Assembly (NCBI GenBank): GCA_021295755.1
Contig: JAGWBT010000026.1
Coordinates: forward strand, 6,585 to 51,713
Direction of reading: 5' to 3'
Length of the DNA: 45,129 bases
Source: Candidatus Poribacteria bacterium
Lineage (GTDB): Bacteria; Poribacteria; WGA-4E; PCPOR2b
How positions within the stretch are numbered: the first letter of the stretch is position 1; each line of letters begins with the position of its first letter. Positions 3,428-42,201 of this stretch are shown piece after piece. Position numbers and translations under genes: made by a program. A model generated the notes under the pieces. The model had not been told where the DNA came from. It did not search any database and was given only the letters and a program-made list of their open reading frames with translations.

Positions 3428-4069
3428 TTATGTATCCCAGCCCTGCTGTTTGATTATCTGTTGGAGTTCACTTTCCAAAGCAGCAAAGGCAGATAATGCA
3501 CGCAAGGGGGAAAAATCCTGAATGAACTCAGTAACACGACGGGCATATTCACTCACCGGAAACCCGCTTAAACGCCGTCCTTTGAGGTTACTTGCTTGCT
3601 TGAGACGCTCATGCAGTACCGTTTTCGGATCTGGCAAGTCCTCTAGCCGACTAATTGCAGGCAGATATAGCGATTGGCGATTAGAAGAGTTTCCAGCTGC
3701 ATGATTGATGGCTGGTTCATCAAACAGTAACCACGCTTCCTGCATACGAACTGGCACAACACAAATCCTTGGCGGAACGGAGATAACAACGCTTTGGATT
3801 GCTGTCGTAATTTCGCTGACACGGTTCTCCCGTGGTTCTCTTTCGGCATCTCGATGAACAAACAAGAGATCACAAGGATAGAGCTCGAGACCCCAGTGAA
3901 TTTTATCTTCTAATCGCCTTCGCTTTTGGTGGGGAATCCTGTTCAAGTCTGCCCATGCAGATTGAATGGCATACGCCACACCATTCTCTCTCAATAACCA
4001 GGTAAGAATCGGGATTAATGCAATATCTGAACTACCATCTGTCACTAGGGTATACCGTAGCTCTGTCAT
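3428..4069 (-). CDS. TOPRIM-like partner protein of AAA ATPase (DUF4276-like)
   Basis: This 213-aa protein opens with a beta strand and TDGSSDIALIPIL, which resembles the VEGxxD strand-turn of TOPRIM/DUF4276 proteins with Asp in place of Glu. CDLLFVHRDAERE follows at about residues 68-80 as a candidate DxD-type metal site, and PVRMQEAWLLFDEPAI resembles the ELEAW helix of DUF4276. There is no signal peptide or membrane segment. Its ATG overlaps the ATPase stop codon (4066-4069), so the two are translationally coupled. OLD, Gabija and PARIS systems likewise pair an ABC-type ATPase with a TOPRIM nuclease, so a nuclease or defence role is possible. The family assignment is from memory of motifs and is not certain. 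Confidence 0.55.
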   Translation of the reverse strand: MTELRYTLVTDGSSDIALIPILTWLLRENGVAYAIQSAWADLNRIPHQKRRRLEDKIHWGLELYPCDLLFVHRDAEREPRENRVSEITTAIQSVVISVPPRICVVPVRMQEAWLLFDEPAINHAAGNSSNRQSLYLPAISRLEDLPDPKTVLHERLKQASNLKGRRLSGFPVSEYARRVTEFIQDFSPLRALSAFAALESELQQIIKQQGWDT

Positions 4070-5515
4070 TCTGGACCACTATAATCAAAAAGTAAGAGTT
4101 GGAGACTGTCTATAACTCGTTGGGGTTTTTTCAGCTTTGGTTTCGGTGACGAGTCTATTGGCTCAGTAGACTCCGAGTCTATCGGTTCAGTAGACCCTAG
4201 GTAAGCCAACAACTGACCTTTGGCTACAGATTGAACGTCCGGCAGAGCTTTTGCCCGCCATGTATTGGGTAACCAGCTAAAGCGCACCCCCTTAAATCGC
4301 TGATTATTCTGTACCATCTCTCTCAAGTCTGCAATCAAAAGCATATTGGGGAATGTGTATTAACAATTACCTGACATAGTGGGTTATCCGGTCCAACAGG
4401 GTGCCCCACATCGGTGGCGATGTCCTGAAGTAGCCGCAAAATCGAGGGAATTCGTGCTGGATGAATACCGTTTTCCGGTTCCTCCATGCAGATGAGACCA
4501 CTCGCTTGTGGGTCTAATTCTAAAATTGATAGTCCTAGAAAGCGTAACGTTCCATCAGAAAGCGAGCGCCCTGGGTGAATTGTACCGCTATGGTCTTTGA
4601 CTTCCAAAGTGAGTAGCTCACGTCGTTCATCTCGATCAATCCCGACCGAAGCAACATCGTCAATCAGTTCTGATAGCCGAGCGGCGACCCGATCATATAT
4701 CTGCTGCCCGTTAGAGGTTGGATTTGTGTTTTCTTGAGACCGTGCCAGTCCAAATAAGGTCGCTGGCAAGTGAGAGCCATCGCTACCTAAGCCGGGCGGC
4801 GTTGTGAACTCATCAGGTTCACGCAGCGAAGAAGACTCCAATTGTAGTAACCGCCAAGACTGCATTTCACGACGCGCTAACAGTGCTGTTGGACTCTCCG
4901 CGGCGTTGACAGTAGAAAGTACGGTGCGTGGAAGATTTTTCGCCAGAATAGCTTGAGGCCTGCCACTACTTCCGCCATCTTTATGTAACTTAATAACGCA
5001 ATTCCCTTCCTGATCTTCAGTTGAAATAAAAGGGACCGCTCTCCTACCTTTTAATACAGAATCGCGCCATCTTTTTCTTTGATCCGCGAATGGCAGATGT
5101 TTTTTCCAGTCATTTAATTTTAGACGCTCAAGTCTCTCCTCAATGAGTTCGAGGGTGCCCAGCGAGGGTAAGCTATGATCCACACGATACGCAAGTGCAA
5201 CACGGTAACGGAGAAACGTCGTAGTTGCTTTTGCCTGCTGCCCCAAGTCATCTATCCCTTCTTGGGGAATTATCATCTCCGCTTCAAAGCACATCTCCGT
5301 AGTATCCTTATCGCCGATACGATGCCCTCCTCACTGCGCACTGACCGGGCTGCATTTATCAATGTATCGTTGGCTAAGGCACTGAGAAACTGAATCGCAT
5401 CAAACAGATTCGATTTGCCCGTGCCGTTTGCACCGGCAACACAGGTAAAGGGGCCCAAGGGAACATCAATATCAATAAGGTTTTTGAATCCAGAAACTTT
5501 TAAGCGAGTCAACAT
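4066..5515 (-). pseudogene. AAA_21/OLD-like ATPase, broken by two frameshifts
   Basis: Three consecutive frames make one protein of about 480 aa. The first (5515 to about 5327) has MLTRLKVSGFKNL and Walker A GANGTGKSN. The second has FEAEMIIP, the signature SLSDGTLRFLGL, Walker B LICMEEPENGIHP and the switch histidine in VIVNTHSP. The third (to 4066) gives ADLREMVQNNQRF and the acidic/basic tail. Adding one base to GGG at 5325-5327 and to the four-base run at 4348-4351 restores a single frame. An SD (AAGGAGGGAG) precedes 5515. The stop overlaps the start of the TOPRIM-like gene, so the module was built as an operon. Either the gene is decaying or these are base-calling errors. Confidence 0.8.
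4151..4198. repeat. 24-bp tandem duplication in ATPase tail
   Basis: Two adjacent 24-bp copies (4151-4174 and 4175-4198) differ at only a few positions and encode the repeated peptide STEPIDSE in the C-terminal tail of the ATPase. The unit is a multiple of three, so the frame is kept. Confidence 0.7.
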
Positions 5516-13585: not shown

Positions 13586-16339
13586 ATGTCAAATTGGTAC
13601 TCCCAAAAGATCCCACATCTTCTACATGAATTCAAAACAGACCTCGATCATGGGTTGAGCAGTCAGGAAGCTACTTCCCAACGTGGAAAATACGGCAGCA
13701 ATGAACTCCTGCAAACCCATGACCGTTCATTCTTTGCTCTCTTATTAAGACAATTCGCCAATTTAACAGTCATACTCCTGTTCGTTGTTATTTGCCTCCT
13801 TTTCTACCTTCAACGCACGATTCACGAAATCCTAGTATTTTCGGCCATTCTTTGTTTTCATGTCCTTTGGAGATTCATTCACGCTGGGCGGGCGCACTCT
13901 CAACTTCAGGCTATTAAAACCCATTTAGAGGTCAGTGTATCCGTTATTCGAGATGGGGGTGTTCTCAAACTACCCCCTAACGCCATTGTCCCCGGGGATC
14001 TATTGCTCCTGAAGGAAGGAGACTATGTTCCGGCTGATGCTCGCATCGTTGAGGCTGATGCCTTGGTGGTCGATGAGGCGCCGGTGTTCGGAACGACCGC
14101 CTACACGCACAAAAACGATGAAGATATCTCCACTCCAAATCTGTCACCCAACAAGCAAAGTAATATGATCTTTGCCGGAACCTATGTCTTGGAAGGAGAA
14201 GCACGCGCAATTGTTGTTGGAATCAACGATCAGCTGGAGATAAACCGATCCGATAAGCGTACGCCCGCTATGGTTGACCTAGATGCCGAAGCGGAAGTAC
14301 AGATGGGCCTCTTTTACGATTATTTCCAAATTATCGGGGGAATTTTAGGAGCGGTAGCGATCGGCCTAGCGTTTCTACTTCAAGATAAAAGTGCCCATTG
14401 GAGTGAAATCCTGTTTCTTAGTTTTGGCTTTGTTGTGGCTGCGATTCCAGAAGGGATTGCCTCAGCGAGTCGGGCCATCCTAACCCAACACGCTTATACA
14501 CTTTTACAGAAAGGAGTCGCAATCCGTAATCTTGTCAATTTGGAAAGATTGGGCAAACTTACGACGGTATGCGTTGATGAAGTAGGCAATTTTATGACGG
14601 AGGAGATGGCTGTTTCGCACGTTTTTGTCGATGACAGTCTCGTCGATCGCGAGACGTGGGAAGCTTGGTTGAAATCCCGTGATGAACACATATCGGCTGA
14701 GACTGATGAAGCTACAATTTTAACGGCCTTACCCGATTCAGAAATGCCACGAGAATTTCCGCTGCTAATTCTGCTTGCAAGCCACTGTGCTGCTGATACA
14801 AGCAGGAGTGGTATGGCGGAAGCTTCGACTGTAGTGGAAGTAAGCATCAGCGATACGCTGAACCAAGTTGCCGAAAGAATTGGATTTGACTTGGAGCGTT
14901 ATAATGAAGCCTTCACCAAGATTGATGAACAGATTCAGACATCAGAATGCCCATATAAAACACTCGTTTTTGCACTCCAAGACGGGAAGTTCTTAAAATT
15001 GATGTTCGGTGATGCAGAGGCAATCCTGCAAACTTGCCACCGCATTCAGGTCGATGGAAATGCTAACTACATGAGTTTCGACCAGAAACAGTTGATACAT
15101 CAGGCAATTGAATACCTATCAAATAGCAAAACTCAAGCTTTCGCTGTCGCCTATCGAAACCTAAACACTCCGCCCCCGCTCGAAGATACGCAACATAACA
15201 TGACCTTTTTAGGCTTTATCACTTTTATGGAGTTAGAGTACCCTGATTCAAAGCAGAGTATCCAATCCAGTCTAGATGCAGGACTAAAAATCGTCACAAT
15301 AACAGATAGAGACAGGAATGCCGCTCTAGATATCGCCAAAGAATTGGCTATTGTTCAAGATAAACACGGTGTTGTTACGCAAGAAGACTTGGCTGATTTC
15401 AGTGATGAGCAGTATGAATCGATTGTAAATCGCTTACTTGTATATTGCCGCCCTACCCCTGAACAAAAACAGAACTTGGTACAACATCTAAAGCGTCTCG
15501 GTTATTCTGTTGGATTCTGGGGAAAATCACCACTCGATTTGCGGGCGATGCGAATGGCAGATGTCGGTTTCGCTTCCGCTGCGCGCTCATCCCATATTGT
15601 ACAACACCGCGCAGGGTGTGTAGTACTTAACGAGGGCTTTGGTGTCATCACAGATCTCATGCGTCAGGTCCGTGAATCATATATCAACTTGAGAAGTTCA
15701 ATGCGCTGGCTGCTCTCCTGCAGCCTTGCACAGGTTCTCACGCTTGTCATCGGATACGCGCTACCGCATTTCGCTTTCTTTTTTCCCGCGCTACGTGATT
15801 TACCTATGCCGTTGACCCTGCTGCAGCTGTTCTGGGTTCATTTACTGGTAAGTTTGATACCACTGATGAGTTTGGGATGCGATCGCATCCGTGGTGATAT
15901 TAGATATAGCAGACCGCAAACGATTCCACCCTTCCTATCACGAGCGGATTTCTACGATATGATGCTGCGCAGCATTGTCATCGCATCAATGACTATTTTT
16001 AGTTTTATTCTTACATCTGTAAATACAGATGCGACTCCGCAGAACCCTCATGCCACCGCACAAACGGCAGCATGTACCACATTGATTTTTGGGCTGTTGA
16101 TTTCGAGTTTTCAGTGCCATCGCCTTTTCTGGGAATCTGTTTTTCAAAGGATAAGGGCAAATCTGCCCTTATGTTTTACTATCTTGGCGTGTATTGCGCT
16201 GCATCTCTCTATCGTCTATCTGCCAACAACGCAACAAATATTCGGTTTTGCGCCGCTTATCCAAGAGTGGCAATGGATACTTGCATTCTGTGCCGTTCTC
16301 CTATTTTTGCCCTTGAACCTCACGACTCGGCGCCGTTAG
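13586..16339 (+). CDS. Degenerate P-type ATPase (P2-like), probably catalytically inactive
   Basis: The 917-aa protein has the length, membrane pattern and domain order of a P2-type cation ATPase. It has an N-terminal cation-transporter domain (LSSQEATSQRGKYGSNEL), the A domain, M4 with AIPEG (286-290), P and N domains, and about six C-terminal membrane segments. The catalytic motifs are altered. DKTGT is DEVGN (331-335; the Asp remains, the Lys is Glu). TGES is FGTT (168-171). The KGA region is MFGDAE, TGD is TDR (573-575) and TGDGVND is WGKSPLD (645-651). M6 NLVTDGLP is HLLVSLIP. The surrounding framework, such as PEQKQNLVQHLKRLGY and ADVGFA, is well kept. This suggests a pseudoenzyme or regulator rather than a pump. 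It stands alone behind the rpmA terminator. Confidence 0.85.
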   Translation: MSNWYSQKIPHLLHEFKTDLDHGLSSQEATSQRGKYGSNELLQTHDRSFFALLLRQFANLTVILLFVVICLLFYLQRTIHEILVFSAILCFHVLWRFIHAGRAHSQLQAIKTHLEVSVSVIRDGGVLKLPPNAIVPGDLLLLKEGDYVPADARIVEADALVVDEAPVFGTTAYTHKNDEDISTPNLSPNKQSNMIFAGTYVLEGEARAIVVGINDQLEINRSDKRTPAMVDLDAEAEVQMGLFYDYFQIIGGILGAVAIGLAFLLQDKSAHWSEILFLSFGFVVAAIPEGIASASRAILTQHAYTLLQKGVAIRNLVNLERLGKLTTVCVDEVGNFMTEEMAVSHVFVDDSLVDRETWEAWLKSRDEHISAETDEATILTALPDSEMPREFPLLILLASHCAADTSRSGMAEASTVVEVSISDTLNQVAERIGFDLERYNEAFTKIDEQIQTSECPYKTLVFALQDGKFLKLMFGDAEAILQTCHRIQVDGNANYMSFDQKQLIHQAIEYLSNSKTQAFAVAYRNLNTPPPLEDTQHNMTFLGFITFMELEYPDSKQSIQSSLDAGLKIVTITDRDRNAALDIAKELAIVQDKHGVVTQEDLADFSDEQYESIVNRLLVYCRPTPEQKQNLVQHLKRLGYSVGFWGKSPLDLRAMRMADVGFASAARSSHIVQHRAGCVVLNEGFGVITDLMRQVRESYINLRSSMRWLLSCSLAQVLTLVIGYALPHFAFFFPALRDLPMPLTLLQLFWVHLLVSLIPLMSLGCDRIRGDIRYSRPQTIPPFLSRADFYDMMLRSIVIASMTIFSFILTSVNTDATPQNPHATAQTAACTTLIFGLLISSFQCHRLFWESVFQRIRANLPLCFTILACIALHLSIVYLPTTQQIFGFAPLIQEWQWILAFCAVLLFLPLNLTTRRR

Positions 16340-19163: not shown

Positions 19164-20779
19164 TTAAACCTGTTGCATTTCGCCCGATTGGTAACGGTTC
19201 CAATAGTCCCTGACTTTTCCTAGTACCCTCGGTGCAAGGAGGAGGCTTCCAATGATGTTCGGGAAAGCCATACCGAGAGCCATCGCATCCGAAAAGTCTA
19301 AAACAGCATCCAATTTATTGACTGCACCAACGATAACAAAAAGGATAAAAATAATTCTGAAAACGATAACAGTGTTTAGGCCGGCACCACCGAAATGGTC
19401 GAGCAGGTAGATCCAACCCCGTTCGCCGTAGTAAGCCCAAGAAATCATTGTGGAATAGGAAAACAGCCCGATACTGATGGTAAGGATCAACGGGAACCAA
19501 CCTATGGCACTTTCAAACGCTTTTGTCGTTAGCGTAACGCCATCAGACTGTGATAGGTTGGGATCATTCCATGCGCCCGTAATGATGACTACCATCGCCG
19601 TCATCAAACATACGATGATAGTATCAATGAAGGGACCAACCATCGCCACGATACCCTCTCGAACAGGTTCTTCTGTCTTTGCTGCTGCGTGAGCGATAGC
19701 AGCACTGCCGATTCCCGCCTCATTTGAAAAAGATGCGCGTTTGATACCCAGACCAGTACGCCAAAAAATCCGCCGTAGAAAGCATTACCTGTGAAAGCCA
19801 TGCTAAAGATAAGACCGATGGCTTCAGGGATTTTGGTAAAGTTCATCAAAATTATTAGAATCGAAACACATACATACAAACCACACATGGCAAGTACAAT
19901 TTTAGAGGTCGCTGCGCCAATTCGTTTAATCCCACCGATAATCACTGCCCCCACCAAAATTGCTATTACAATACCGATGATCCAGTTCGCGCCTGCTGAA
20001 AGTCCGAAAGTGCTCCGAAACGCCTCGGCTGTCTGATTTACCTGAAACATATTTCCGACACCGAGGGCACCTCCCATGACCATCAGTGCATACATGATTG
20101 CTAGCACTTTCCCCAAAGGTGCCCAACTGCCTCCCAGCTGTTTCAATCCGATATCGACGTAGTACATGGGACCGCCGGAGATGCTACCATCTGCATTTGT
20201 CTGCCGATACAGTTGGGATAAAGTACAACTGCTGAACTTTGCAGTCATCCCGAATACCGCTGCGATAAGCATCCAAAAAACAGCGCCCGGACCGCCTAAC
20301 TGAATAGCAATCGCTACGCCTGCAATGTTGCCGAGACCAACCGTTGCAGACAACGCGCTTGTCAGGGCACGGAAATGGGAGATTTCCCCGGTGTCCTCTG
20401 GGTTATCATATTTCCCTCGAATGACGTTGATGGAGTGCTTCAATCCCCGCACGTTGATCCAGCGATACCAGAAAGTAAAAAAGATTGCACCGAGGATTAG
20501 GATAACAATAAGAAAAGGAAGACTAATAACCTTTTTCTGGGGATTGCCGGATGCGTCCAGCACCGGATTTCCATCTCGGTCGCCCTCATCAATCTGAATA
20601 GAACCAAAGGCGATGTCAAAAAAGAGAACCGCGCCAATTGTCGCGTTAGCTTTATCAAGGGCAGAAGGTTCTCCGCTTTCTTGTGCCCAAGCAGATACCA
20701 CATATAGAATCGTCAATAACGCTAGGAGTAGGATAGCCACTCCTGCCTTACTATAAAACCACGGTGCTTTTTACTGCAT
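19164..20779 (-). pseudogene. Sodium:alanine symporter (AGCS family), stop and frameshift
   Basis: This AGCS-family permease imports alanine/glycine with sodium and would have about 8-10 membrane segments. The first frame runs from 20740 to about 19750 with the family motifs TVGLGNIAGVAIAIQLGGPG and SGGPMYYVDIG. The second runs to 19164 with VGPFIDTIIVCLMTAMVVI and SWAYYGERGWIYL. Adding one G to the GGG at 19747-19749 joins them as GIKRASFSNEAGIGSAAIAHAA, the conserved stretch. The 5' end also looks damaged. The best start, ATG 20779 with a strong SD (AAAAGGAGCAAAT), meets TAA at codon 3, and the same frame then continues KAPWFYSKAG into the signal-like hydrophobic segment. If the TAA is real, a GTG at 20740 is the next start. 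Confidence 0.85.
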
Positions 20780-21960: not shown

Positions 21961-22829
21961 TTAAGCCCGTGTCGCTGTTGATTTCCCCAACAGTCCAGAC
22001 GGTCGAAAGATAATAACGAGAATCATAATGATATAAGCAATCGCCAGACGGTACTCAGAAGAGATGTAGCCAGCACCGAGGGCTTCGGCAACCCCGAGTA
22101 CCACGCCGCCAAGCATTGCGCCGGTAATGTTACCAATCCCTCCAAGCACAGCGGCGGCAAATGCTGCGACCCCTTTGTAGTACGCAGCCCAACCATGACA
22201 CCGGCAACGGCCCCCAGTGCGGATCCAATTGCAAAGGTCACGGTGATTACGCGATTGGTATCAATGCCCATCAAGCTTGCTGCGATTCTGTTTTGAGCGC
22301 AAGCCCGCATCGCTTTTCCAATTTTTGTTAAGTGAATTAACCGGTTTAAGCCAATCATCAAGCCGATGGCGAGCAAGATAATAAAGACATCTAGGAATGA
22401 AACTTGTGCCCCACCGGGTAAGGGGATAGTATTGCCCGTTAAGAGCGTGGGTGTTGCTTCGGCGGGAAATTTGCGCCATCTTGCCCCCCAAATCAAGCGA
22501 GCGAGATTTTGCAGCATCAGGGACATGCCAATGGCGGTAATCAGGGCGGAGAGACGTGGGGCGTTACGGAGCGGCCGGTAGGCGACGAAGTCAATCAACA
22601 TCCCCATCAACGCGCACAGGGTCATGCTAAGTGGTAATGCAACCCAAAATGAAAGGCCGAAGGTCGTGACACATAAGAAGGCAAAATACGCACCGAACAT
22701 AAAAATTTCGCCGTGTGCAAAGTTGATGAGCTGGATGATGCCGTAGACCATCGTATAGCCCACGGCAATTAGGGCGTAGATGCCGCCAAGCACGAGTCCG
22801 TTAATAATTTGTTCCAGAAATTGGGCCAT
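21961..22829 (-). pseudogene. livH: Branched-chain amino acid ABC transporter permease LivH, one frameshift
   Basis: LivH is the second permease of the branched-chain amino acid transporter. The first frame (22829 to about 22190) has NGLVLGGIYALIAVGYTMVYG and INFAHGEIFMFGAY, the LivH hallmarks, and the EAA-like loop KIGKAMRACAQNRIAASLMGI. The second (to 21961) has VLGGIGNITGAMLGGVVLG and IIFRPSGLLG. Adding one G to GGG at 22188-22190 restores VGAAYYKGVAAFAAAVLGGI and a 289-aa protein of normal length. This single missing base in a homopolymer may be a sequencing error. An otherwise intact operon supports that view. Confidence 0.9.
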
Positions 22830-38986: not shown

Positions 38987-39901
38987 TTATAGTCCATTCA
39001 TCTGCACAGTTGCCCCGGCAGAATCGATGGGTAACACCTTGATGTCGCAAGAAATCTGGTTTCGGCTGAAAGCTTGGCTCATTTCCGAACCGACTTGATC
39101 TGTTGATGTTGTGCAGTAGGCTGCAACGCTGGGACCTGCTCCACTTAGCGCCACACTTAATGCGCCTGCACGCATCGCAGATTCGGCGACATCATCAAAT
39201 CCAGGGATGAGGGAGGTTCGATACGGTTGATGGAGTCGATCTGCCATGGCAAGCGATAACATCTCTAATTTACCTGTTGCAATGGCTGCTACTAACATAG
39301 ACGAACGACTCACATTGTGGATTGCATCAGCAAAATCGACGGTTTGGGGCAGAACGCTACGGGCCGCTTTGGTTGACAACGAAAAATCGGGAATTGCCAC
39401 CACCACCCGCAGATCCAAATCGCAATCCAATTGGATCGAATGGACGTGGCCACCCTGCATCATAGATATGACCAAACCACCAAGCAGCGATGCAGCAACA
39501 TTATCCGGATGCCCTTCAAACTCAGTGGCAAAATCGAGCAATTCAGTACGCGAAAAAGGGGCATCGCATAGGACGTTCGCTGTCAACAGACCACCGAGTA
39601 TGGCTGTGCCACTGCCACCCAGTCCCCGGATTGCGGGAACGCCATTTGTTAGACCCAATCGCAGCCCTTTCGGCTTATACCCGCACTTGTTGAATACCAA
39701 ATTTGCCGCACGGTAAGCGATATTACTTTCGTTGTTGGAGAGCTTATCTACATCGACGCCGGTGACCTTAATCTCAGTTCCTTTGTCAATTTCTTCAAGC
39801 GAAATTGTGCTATAGAGTTGCAGGGCGAGCCCAAGGACGTCAAAACCGGGACCTAAGTTTGTGGTGCTCGCTGGAACACGAGCGGTCGCTTTATTGGGCA
39901 T
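38987..39901 (-). CDS. thrB: Homoserine kinase
   Basis: ThrB phosphorylates homoserine, making the substrate of ThrC. This 304-aa GHMP kinase begins ARVPASTTNLGPGFDVLGLAL, the family signature. The ATP loop is RGLGGSGTAILGG, where Gly replaces the first Ser of the usual GLGSS. SGAGPSVAAY is the conserved C-terminal GHMP motif. The gene lies 28 bp after the aminotransferase gene on the same strand, which can supply aspartate to the same pathway, with thrC encoded elsewhere in the window. Confidence 0.93.
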   Translation of the reverse strand: MPNKATARVPASTTNLGPGFDVLGLALQLYSTISLEEIDKGTEIKVTGVDVDKLSNNESNIAYRAANLVFNKCGYKPKGLRLGLTNGVPAIRGLGGSGTAILGGLLTANVLCDAPFSRTELLDFATEFEGHPDNVAASLLGGLVISMMQGGHVHSIQLDCDLDLRVVVAIPDFSLSTKAARSVLPQTVDFADAIHNVSRSSMLVAAIATGKLEMLSLAMADRLHQPYRTSLIPGFDDVAESAMRAGALSVALSGAGPSVAAYCTTSTDQVGSEMSQAFSRNQISCDIKVLPIDSAGATVQMNGL

Positions 39902-39929
39902 TAAATCTACCTTCGGAAATTAAGGGCAA

Positions 39930-41096
39930 TTACCGGATCCTTGAAATTGCCGAATCCATCCGGGCTAAGGCTTCTTGGATATTCTCCAACGAATTGGCAT
40001 ACGATAGTCTTAAGTAGCCATCGCCATATTTACCAAACGCAGTACCGGGTAGGACGGCAACGCCTGCGTCCTCAAGTAGGTAGTCCGATAGATCTTGGCA
40101 GGAGAGGGGCAGTCGTGAGACATTGGGGAATACGTAGAACGCGCCGAGGGGCTTGATACAACTCACGCCCTCAATCGCATTGAGACCATCAACAATCGCA
40201 TCACGCCGATGTCTGAACTCAGTAACCATTTCGTGGACAAAGTCTTGTGGTCCCGTTAGTGCCTCGATCCCCGCAAATTGCGTGAAGGTTGCCGTGCAGG
40301 AATTGGAATTAATGGTCAGTTGTGTAATCTTATCCGCTAGTTCTATAGGAGCAATCCCATAGCCCAACCGCCAGCCGGTCATAGCATAGGTTTTGGAGTG
40401 ACCCTCAAGTAGAATCGTCCGTTCCTTCATGCCCGGTAGACTGATAAGGCTATCGTGCACGCCCTCATAAAGGATCCGTGAATAGACCTCATCTGTCAAC
40501 ACATAGAAATCGTGCTTAATCGCTAACTCGGCGATTGCTTCCAAATCGCTTTTTGCCAATGTACCGCCTGTCGGGTTTTGGGGTGAGTTGATGATCAGCA
40601 GCTTCGTCTGATCGGAAACAGAAGCCTCAAGATCTTCAATCCTGAAGCGAAAATCAACCTCCTCGCGCAACGGCAAAGGGACTGCCTTCCCGTCGATGAA
40701 ATCAATGACCGATTCATAAATCGGAAATCCAGGGTTAGGATAGATAACTTCATCTCCTTCATTGGCAAGTGCCAAGATGGTAAAGAAGATGATAGGTTTG
40801 GCACCGGGCGTCACGGTTACTTCGTCCGGATGAATCTCTACACCCCGCGTTTCTGAAATATGTTCAGCAATCACTTCGCGAAACTCCAGTAAACCCGCGG
40901 AGGGCCCATATCCAGTGTGACCATCCTTCATCGCCTTGAAAGCGGCCTCGATAATGTTCCCAGGGGTTATGAAATCGGGTTGACCAATTTCGAGATGGAC
41001 TATGTCTTTTCCCTGTGCTTCTAATCCTTTGGCTTTGGCAAGTACCTCGAAGGCAGATTCCGTTCCCAAACGGTCCATTCGATCTGCAAAATTCAT
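39930..41096 (-). CDS. Class I/II aminotransferase (aspartate aminotransferase-like)
   Basis: This 388-aa fold-type I PLP enzyme has a lysine anchored in LLEGHSKTYAMTGWRLGY. NSPQNPTGG, TDEVYSRILY and GYGPSAGLLEFREVIAEH are the standard class I markers. DGYLRLSYA near the end carries the Arg that binds the substrate carboxylate. It resembles the AspB/PatA group, which makes aspartate or LL-DAP-type amino acids; specificity cannot be fixed. An SD (GAGGTGATAG) directly precedes the ATG. Proximity to thrB suggests a role in aspartate-family amino acid synthesis. Confidence 0.88.
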   Translation of the reverse strand: MNFADRMDRLGTESAFEVLAKAKGLEAQGKDIVHLEIGQPDFITPGNIIEAAFKAMKDGHTGYGPSAGLLEFREVIAEHISETRGVEIHPDEVTVTPGAKPIIFFTILALANEGDEVIYPNPGFPIYESVIDFIDGKAVPLPLREEVDFRFRIEDLEASVSDQTKLLIINSPQNPTGGTLAKSDLEAIAELAIKHDFYVLTDEVYSRILYEGVHDSLISLPGMKERTILLEGHSKTYAMTGWRLGYGIAPIELADKITQLTINSNSCTATFTQFAGIEALTGPQDFVHEMVTEFRHRRDAIVDGLNAIEGVSCIKPLGAFYVFPNVSRLPLSCQDLSDYLLEDAGVAVLPGTAFGKYGDGYLRLSYANSLENIQEALARMDSAISRIR

Positions 41097-41160
41097 CTAT
41101 CACCTCAATTTTTTGAAAATGGATTCTCCTATCCTAATATCGTACTCAAACTGCTAAATT

Positions 41161-42201
41161 CTACTTTGAAGATGACACAACAAAACCATTATTTCCGGTA
41201 ACCCAAACGTTGCTTGCATCTAGCACAAAAATGCTGTTTGCCGGCACCTTGCTGATAATTGGATCATCAATGGTCTGCACTTCCCATGTTGCTCCGCCGT
41301 CGGTTGTATGAAGGATAATACTGACACCTAGCCCTCCGCCGGCTGCCCAACCGACCGCACTGTCGGCAAAACTGACGCTCAATAGCTTCTCCTCCGTGCC
41401 GCTCGTTTGGATATCCCAACTATCGCCGCCATTTGTGGTGTGAAGAACAATACCGTTCTCTCCGACCGCCCAACCGTTGTTGGCATCGACAAAGAAAATG
41501 TCCTCAAGAATATCCGGGATATTTGTGGGTTGATCCACCCAGGTTTGTCCACTGTCAGTGGTCTTCTGGACTAGGCCATCTTGCCCCCCGGTCTCAGGAC
41601 TGATCCGAACCCCCGTTACCCAGCCGGTAGATTCATCAAGAAATTGGACAGCGTTAAGTACGACTGTTTCTTCGTCACCCACGGCAGCCGCCACTTCACC
41701 ACCGCGAAGCACGCTCCACTGTTTACCACCGTTCGTGGTTTGAACGATTGTTTCATTCATCCCAACCGCATAGCCGATTTTGGGATTGACAAAGTGGACA
41801 CCCTTAAGCCAGTTCCCAACCTTACTTGTCTGGACATCCCAGCGCTTGCCGCCATTCGTTGTGCCGACAATCATGCCCTCTTGGCCAACTGCCCATCCAT
41901 GTTTTTTGTCGAAAAAGTAGATATCGTTGAGCATCTGCTCAATAGGGACTTCCGCTTTCTCCCACGTTTTGCCGCCATCTCTAGTGTGCCCAATATATCC
42001 CGGACTGTCCATATCCAATGCTGAAATACCGACAACCCAGCCTTCCTTGGGGCTGATAAAAGCAACTCCATTGTAGTCCCGAACATCCTCCATGTCCATC
42101 TGTTGTAACACATTCCATTGTCCGCTGGCGTGGGGTACGGTTGTTACCAACGCAGCCGCAAATAGAATCAATCCCAGTAAAATCACTCTTCTTTTCAACA
42201 T
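41161..42201 (-). CDS. Secreted YCF48/Hcf136-like beta-propeller protein
   Basis: This 346-aa protein has a Sec signal (VILLGLILFAAALVTTVPHASG, likely cut after ASG or ASA-type site). It then has six or seven repeats with the YCF48 pattern GWAVGxxGxIxxTTNGGxxW, for example GWAVGQEGMIVGTTNGGKRW, GYAVGMNETIVQTTNGGKQW and GWAVGENGIVLHTTNGGDSW. The family includes the photosystem II factor Hcf136, but in non-phototrophs it is a general secreted propeller of unknown role. SD AAGGAG lies 11 bp upstream of the ATG, and a consensus promoter lies at 42320-42348. Confidence 0.88.
   Translation of the reverse strand: MLKRRVILLGLILFAAALVTTVPHASGQWNVLQQMDMEDVRDYNGVAFISPKEGWVVGISALDMDSPGYIGHTRDGGKTWEKAEVPIEQMLNDIYFFDKKHGWAVGQEGMIVGTTNGGKRWDVQTSKVGNWLKGVHFVNPKIGYAVGMNETIVQTTNGGKQWSVLRGGEVAAAVGDEETVVLNAVQFLDESTGWVTGVRISPETGGQDGLVQKTTDSGQTWVDQPTNIPDILEDIFFVDANNGWAVGENGIVLHTTNGGDSWDIQTSGTEEKLLSVSFADSAVGWAAGGGLGVSIILHTTDGGATWEVQTIDDPIISKVPANSIFVLDASNVWVTGNNGFVVSSSK

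Follow-up and report, generated by a model that had tools for sequence, protein, structure and literature searches.

Window here denotes the whole stretch of Candidatus Poribacteria DNA under analysis (45,129 nucleotides), which comes from an uncultured bacterial phylum. A P2A-type pseudo-ATPase gene at positions 13586-16339 of the forward strand appears, from comparison of its sequence with canonical pumps, to encode a conserved P-type pseudoenzyme with a predicted loss of activity (probability above 0.9). P-type ATPases are defined by their aspartyl-phosphate cycle, and this protein has kept the architecture of the pumps while shedding nearly every residue that drives the cycle. Its molecular role is probably that of a membrane scaffold or sensor.

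The gene forms a complete frame of 917 codons from ATG to stop, with no internal stop codon, and has full-length orthologues. By fold and descent the product is a P2A protein, in which the N-terminal, A, P, N and membrane domains follow one another in the usual order; among solved structures, human SPCA1 and Listeria LMCA1 resemble it most in sequence. The Cation_ATPase_N, E1-E2_ATPase and Cation_ATPase_C domains score above their Pfam cut-offs, and neither PF00702 (HAD hydrolase) nor PF13246 (Cation_ATPase) is matched by the window protein in the same Pfam search; all five, including these two, score in the canonical relative L125. The NCBIfam pump equivalogs give at most 256 bits, against cut-offs of several hundred bits.

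FGTT stands in place of TGES (residues 168-171; 14087-14098), DEVGN in place of DKTGT (331-335; 14576-14590), and the P-domain TGD aligns with TDR (573-575; 15302-15310). The TGDGVND hinge reads WGKSPLD (645-651; 15518-15538) and the M6 stretch NLVTDGLP reads HLLVSLIP (752-759; 15839-15862). The intact 917-residue frame and all five replacements had been described in a sequence-only reading of the window, and both descriptions are borne out. Further losses affect the nucleotide and ion sites: the lysine of KGA is Phe474 (FGD, 474-476; 15005-15013), the ion-binding M5 glutamate (Glu771 equivalent) is Gln716 (15731-15733), and the M6 aspartate is Ser756. The protein retains Asp651 (Asp707 equivalent), Lys628 (Lys684 equivalent), the GD...PADAR framework of the A domain and, as elsewhere in the window genus, the M4 helix breaker PEG (288-290; 14447-14455). 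All of these sites are read on the forward strand.

The same losses recur in homologues across Poribacteria, and they are therefore more than chance. We aligned 95 degenerate rows, in which some genes are entered twice because two collections were used, with per-site denominators of 90-94. Neither DKTGT nor TGES occurs in any of the 95. The TGE glutamate is present in 1/91 rows, the KGA lysine in 0/90, the Mg-binding Asp703 equivalent in 0/93, the M5 glutamate in 1/93 and the M6 aspartate (Asp800 equivalent) in 0/93. Other positions are held: the M4 proline (Pro288 in the window protein) in 87/90 rows, the Asp707 equivalent in 91/93 and a basic residue at Lys684 in 92/94; the glutamate of PEG is not kept across the family. 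In the canonical comparison set, DKTG and TGE are each found in 51/52 proteins. A partly altered exception in that set is L166, an Oscillospiraceae P2A-like ATPase on a long branch with DKTGL and TGDSIAD, which is perhaps another lineage losing the P-type cycle.

The catalytic aspartate behaves differently from the motif around it. The sequence-only reading held that the Asp of DKTGT survives; this is correct for the window protein (Asp331) and fails as a family feature, as the position is Asp in 41/90 rows and Asn in 43/90, with His, Glu, Gln or Ser elsewhere. Six changes of state are needed on the tree of representatives. The aspartate is thus dispensable for the function that the family shares, having disappeared repeatedly while selection kept the gene.

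Orthologues are present in 72 of the 73 genomes of the window's order, and the catalytic set is absent from all of them. Nearly all are full length and free of stops, with a few cut at contig ends. The one order genome with no match (G051) is an 81%-complete draft that also lacks the homoserine kinase gene; the draft probably fails to cover this locus, and patchy presence can be set aside. Homologues, likewise without the catalytic set, turn up in each of the ten genomes that represent other families of the class; two of these copies are broken and come from drafts of very low completeness. Of the two genomes from other Poribacteria classes, G059 combines canonical pumps with one degenerate copy (L084), and in G060 we found only a canonical pump and an unassigned C-terminal fragment. 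In total, 83 of 85 Poribacteria genomes carry an orthologue or homologue, and none within the degenerate clade is canonical. The contigs of the orthologues in named genomes belong to Candidatus Poribacteria, and among the matches listed in a pattern-based contig scan, those from outside Poribacteria nearly always have the catalytic set intact. The earlier reading had treated a single protein; its losses stand, and its scope has to be widened to a Poribacteria-wide family.

Catalytic loss appears to have a single deep origin and to have been inherited along host families. When 61 proteins are placed in a tree, a branch with SH-aLRT of 100 sets the degenerate rows apart from the rest, and their inner groups track the host families; long branches and uneven composition are flagged in this tree, making its deepest joints less certain. 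Purifying selection acts on the gene, if less strictly than on some of its neighbors: dN/dS (NG86) is ~0.075-0.20, far below 1, in pairs whose dS stays under about 1. This is similar to the neighboring histidine kinase or the YCF48-like protein of the same genomes, and in most pairs ~2-4 times the value for RNase E/G or the aminotransferase. The sequence-only reading had proposed selection for a non-pumping role, and the shared losses, the low dN/dS and the lack of any canonical orthologue support it well; the sensor of a lipid, ion or partner that it named as an example may be one form of such a role. Canonically invariant positions divide into 56 that are kept, with an entropy of 0.68 against a background of 1.66, and 76 that are changed, with an entropy of 1.78, about that of the background; the framework has therefore been held while catalysis was freed. 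Several replacements are newly fixed in the order (of 26 representatives, T168F in 26, N684G in 25, K332E in 24, K474F in 23 and M644F in 22). Measured against canonical proteins whose overall identity is similar, the N-terminal tail, the A domain and M7-M10 are relatively more constrained, and M1-M2 and the P domain relatively less so.

The AlphaFold2 model of the window protein (pLDDT 84, pTM 0.77) has a complete pump fold with ten helices and an N region of ~180 residues. Its top PDB match is the E1 state of sarcolipin-bound SERCA (TM 0.80). Other nucleotide-free E1 states align with TM of 0.74-0.78, compared with ~0.57-0.60 for most E2 states. For a canonical control modeled likewise, E2-type states match as well or better, with TM up to 0.85. 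This comparison of one model with one control hints that the window protein may rest with an E1-like open headpiece.

The hosts offer few other pumps of this kind. A Cation_ATPase_C search of the 85 Poribacteria genomes found no canonical P2/P3-type pump in 83: there it returned either the degenerate protein by itself or, where that protein has diverged too far or the draft has gaps, no match; canonical Cation_ATPase_C proteins occur only in G059 and G060. Inhibition of a normal paralogous P2 pump is therefore rejected for those 83 hosts. The window genome does encode a copper-type P1B ATPase (L179, G000:C50:31000-34008); its gene lies at the end of a contig and is broken into two frames, and its DKTGT and GDGINDAP motifs are canonical.

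Across most families of the class, the pseudo-ATPase gene lies directly behind the homoserine kinase gene on the same strand (~38 of 45 informative loci), and the usual order outside the window genus is YCF48-like protein, aminotransferase, homoserine kinase, pseudo-ATPase. PorV-like and FlgD-like genes are found upstream of this neighborhood in relatives. The window genus lacks the thrB linkage; there the pseudo-ATPase gene follows rne-rplU-rpmA, a context confined to that genus, on which ground a function read from that operon is rejected. The three usual neighbors are nevertheless in the same window (38987-42201), on the strand opposite to the pseudo-ATPase: the GHMP-family homoserine kinase (38987-39901, ~22.6 kb off), the class I/II aminotransferase (39930-41096) and the YCF48-like beta-propeller protein (41161-42201). 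In G059 and G060 the homoserine kinase has other neighbors. The arrangement suggests co-expression with aspartate-family amino-acid genes in most lineages, which is the weakest step of our explanation, and the linkage may reflect nothing more than gene-order inertia. Two related Clostridia have a canonical P2A ATPase gene immediately after hom-thrB (L140:6377-11640 and L127:5176-11640), with an aspartokinase-like gene (lysC) intervening in L127. None of 16 other thrB-bearing genomes of the Clostridia class has a pump near thrB; the association looks lineage-specific, and an ancient linkage of P2A pumps to thrB is rejected.

Several other window genes deserve mention. A histidine kinase gene is followed by one for a response regulator that carries a fused PglZ domain (PF00072 and PF08665; 7399-10528, forward strand), an arrangement reminiscent of PorX in type IX secretion control. 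On the reverse strand, two genes at 3428-5294 match the candidate defense pair HEC-01B and HEC-01A (PADLOC); the HEC-01 ATPase matches only profile positions 79-389 of 464 and may be truncated. An alanine/sodium symporter gene (19164-20740, reverse strand) occupies two overlapping frames, and is a single 569-aa frame in L051. A LivH-like permease gene (22023-22829, reverse strand) is shortened. These last two defects are probable draft indels or else true breaks.

The window protein shares its domain order, length, ten helices and A-domain framework with the P2A Ca2+/Mn2+-ATPases (SPCA1/PMR1, LMCA1/PacL and SERCA), as well as the M4 proline and the Asp707 and Lys684 equivalents, and its model is closest in fold to E1 states of Na,K-ATPase, SPCA1 and SERCA. 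Only the poribacterial protein has lost TGES, DKTGT, KGA, TGD, GDGVND and the M5/M6 ligands. Among regulated or locked pumps, such as phospholamban- or sarcolipin-bound SERCA and Ser-phosphorylated KdpB, the state closest to the model is E1 of SERCA bound by sarcolipin or phospholamban; these pumps retain their catalytic residues and are merely held back, whereas the window protein has lost them. Inhibited off-cycle E1 states are known (PMC9651954).

The nearest precedent is the animal protein TMEM94/ERMA, which is itself disputed. It lacks TGES, has DKQGI and GSSANL in place of the usual motifs and contains a helix break in M4 (PMC12134183, PMC13322241). One structural study saw no nucleotide and detected no ATPase activity (PMC12134183), and the other claims Mg2+ transport (PMC13322241). 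The poribacterial family resembles it in its P-type fold, missing TGES, and altered DKTGT and GDGVND. The differences are that the N domain is ~180 residues in the poribacterial family and ~400 in TMEM94/ERMA, that the window protein has no GMN motif, that M4 contains PEG rather than PILPLL, and that the aspartate is often lost in Poribacteria. The likeness looks convergent and of independent origin because the nearest relatives of the poribacterial family are bacterial and archaeal P2A pumps; TMEM94 was left out of the tree. In the open-access literature searched we found no bacterial counterpart, no link to Poribacteria and no use of the phrase pseudo-P-type ATPase.

We propose that the family began as a P2A cation pump similar to SPCA/PacL. 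Early in Poribacteria this ancestor would have given up the binding of ATP, phosphoryl transfer, dephosphorylation and the coordination of ions, and purifying selection would afterwards have kept it as a non-hydrolyzing membrane protein. Such a protein could not run the E1P/E2P cycle, and would presumably rest in the E1-like open headpiece conformation. It may serve as a binding platform or sensor through the A domain and M5-M10, where constraint is relatively high. We lean toward this scaffold or sensor role over that of a passive conduit because the ion ligands are lost, constraint has shifted and, in 83 of the 85 genomes, no paralogous P2 pump to regulate was found. A fuller version, in which Poribacteria swapped P2-type ion pumping for a pump-shaped, ATP-independent regulatory protein, a bacterial kind of membrane receptor or scaffold on the P-type fold that is co-expressed with aspartate-family genes in most lineages and senses a metabolite, ion or lipid, is offered tentatively.

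A conduit would use the membrane domain as an ATP-independent uniporter, channel or scramblase for an ion, lipid or metabolite, capped by a headpiece that is either fixed or gated by a ligand. The ten helices and the break at Pro288 in M4 would suit this, as would the relative conservation of M5-M10 and the lipid seen near the M4 break in the TMEM94 membrane domain (PMC12134183). The canonical M5 and M6 ligands are gone, however, conservation is lowest in M1-M2, the helices that form the entry path in pumps, and no positive sign of a pore is seen, leaving this rather unlikely. Less likely again is an unorthodox active transporter that couples ATP to transport by a non-canonical mechanism, as proposed for ERMA, whose Asp is reported to be needed for Mg2+ uptake in spite of its DKQGI, GSSANL and missing TGES (PMC13322241). 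Asp331, Lys628 and Asp651 do persist in the window genus and would leave room for a weak or unusual activity, but the first has given way to other residues in roughly half of the rows, through several changes on the tree in a gene that remains under selection, and the KGA lysine and Asp703 equivalent are absent from every row with a letter there.

Plain decay toward a pseudogene is very improbable. The changed catalytic positions are as variable as the background, and two orthologues are broken, one split over two frames (L077 in G064, 64% complete) and one with an internal TGA (L074 in G061, 76% complete), through local decay or draft errors; for the order, decay is refuted by intact full-length frames in dozens of lineages, dN/dS of ~0.1, strongly conserved framework residues and the deep single origin. 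An artefact of assembly, recoding or misalignment, to which a draft of 257 contigs with probable indels in adjacent window genes might point, is refuted by the same replacements in independent genomes, including the single-contig G001, G026, G041, G048 and G050, and by the canonical P1B ATPase of the window genome, which shows that the losses are not due to code or sequencing.

With its architecture whole and its catalytic, nucleotide and ion residues gone, this nearly phylum-wide protein shows that selection can favor the P-type fold even where the cycle is absent. Most hosts have no P2/P3-type representative that we found other than the pseudo-ATPase. The family also provides an independent natural comparison for the TMEM94/ERMA dispute, since its orthologues differ, Asp or Asn, at the very residue under debate, and these natural variants make the role of that aspartate testable.
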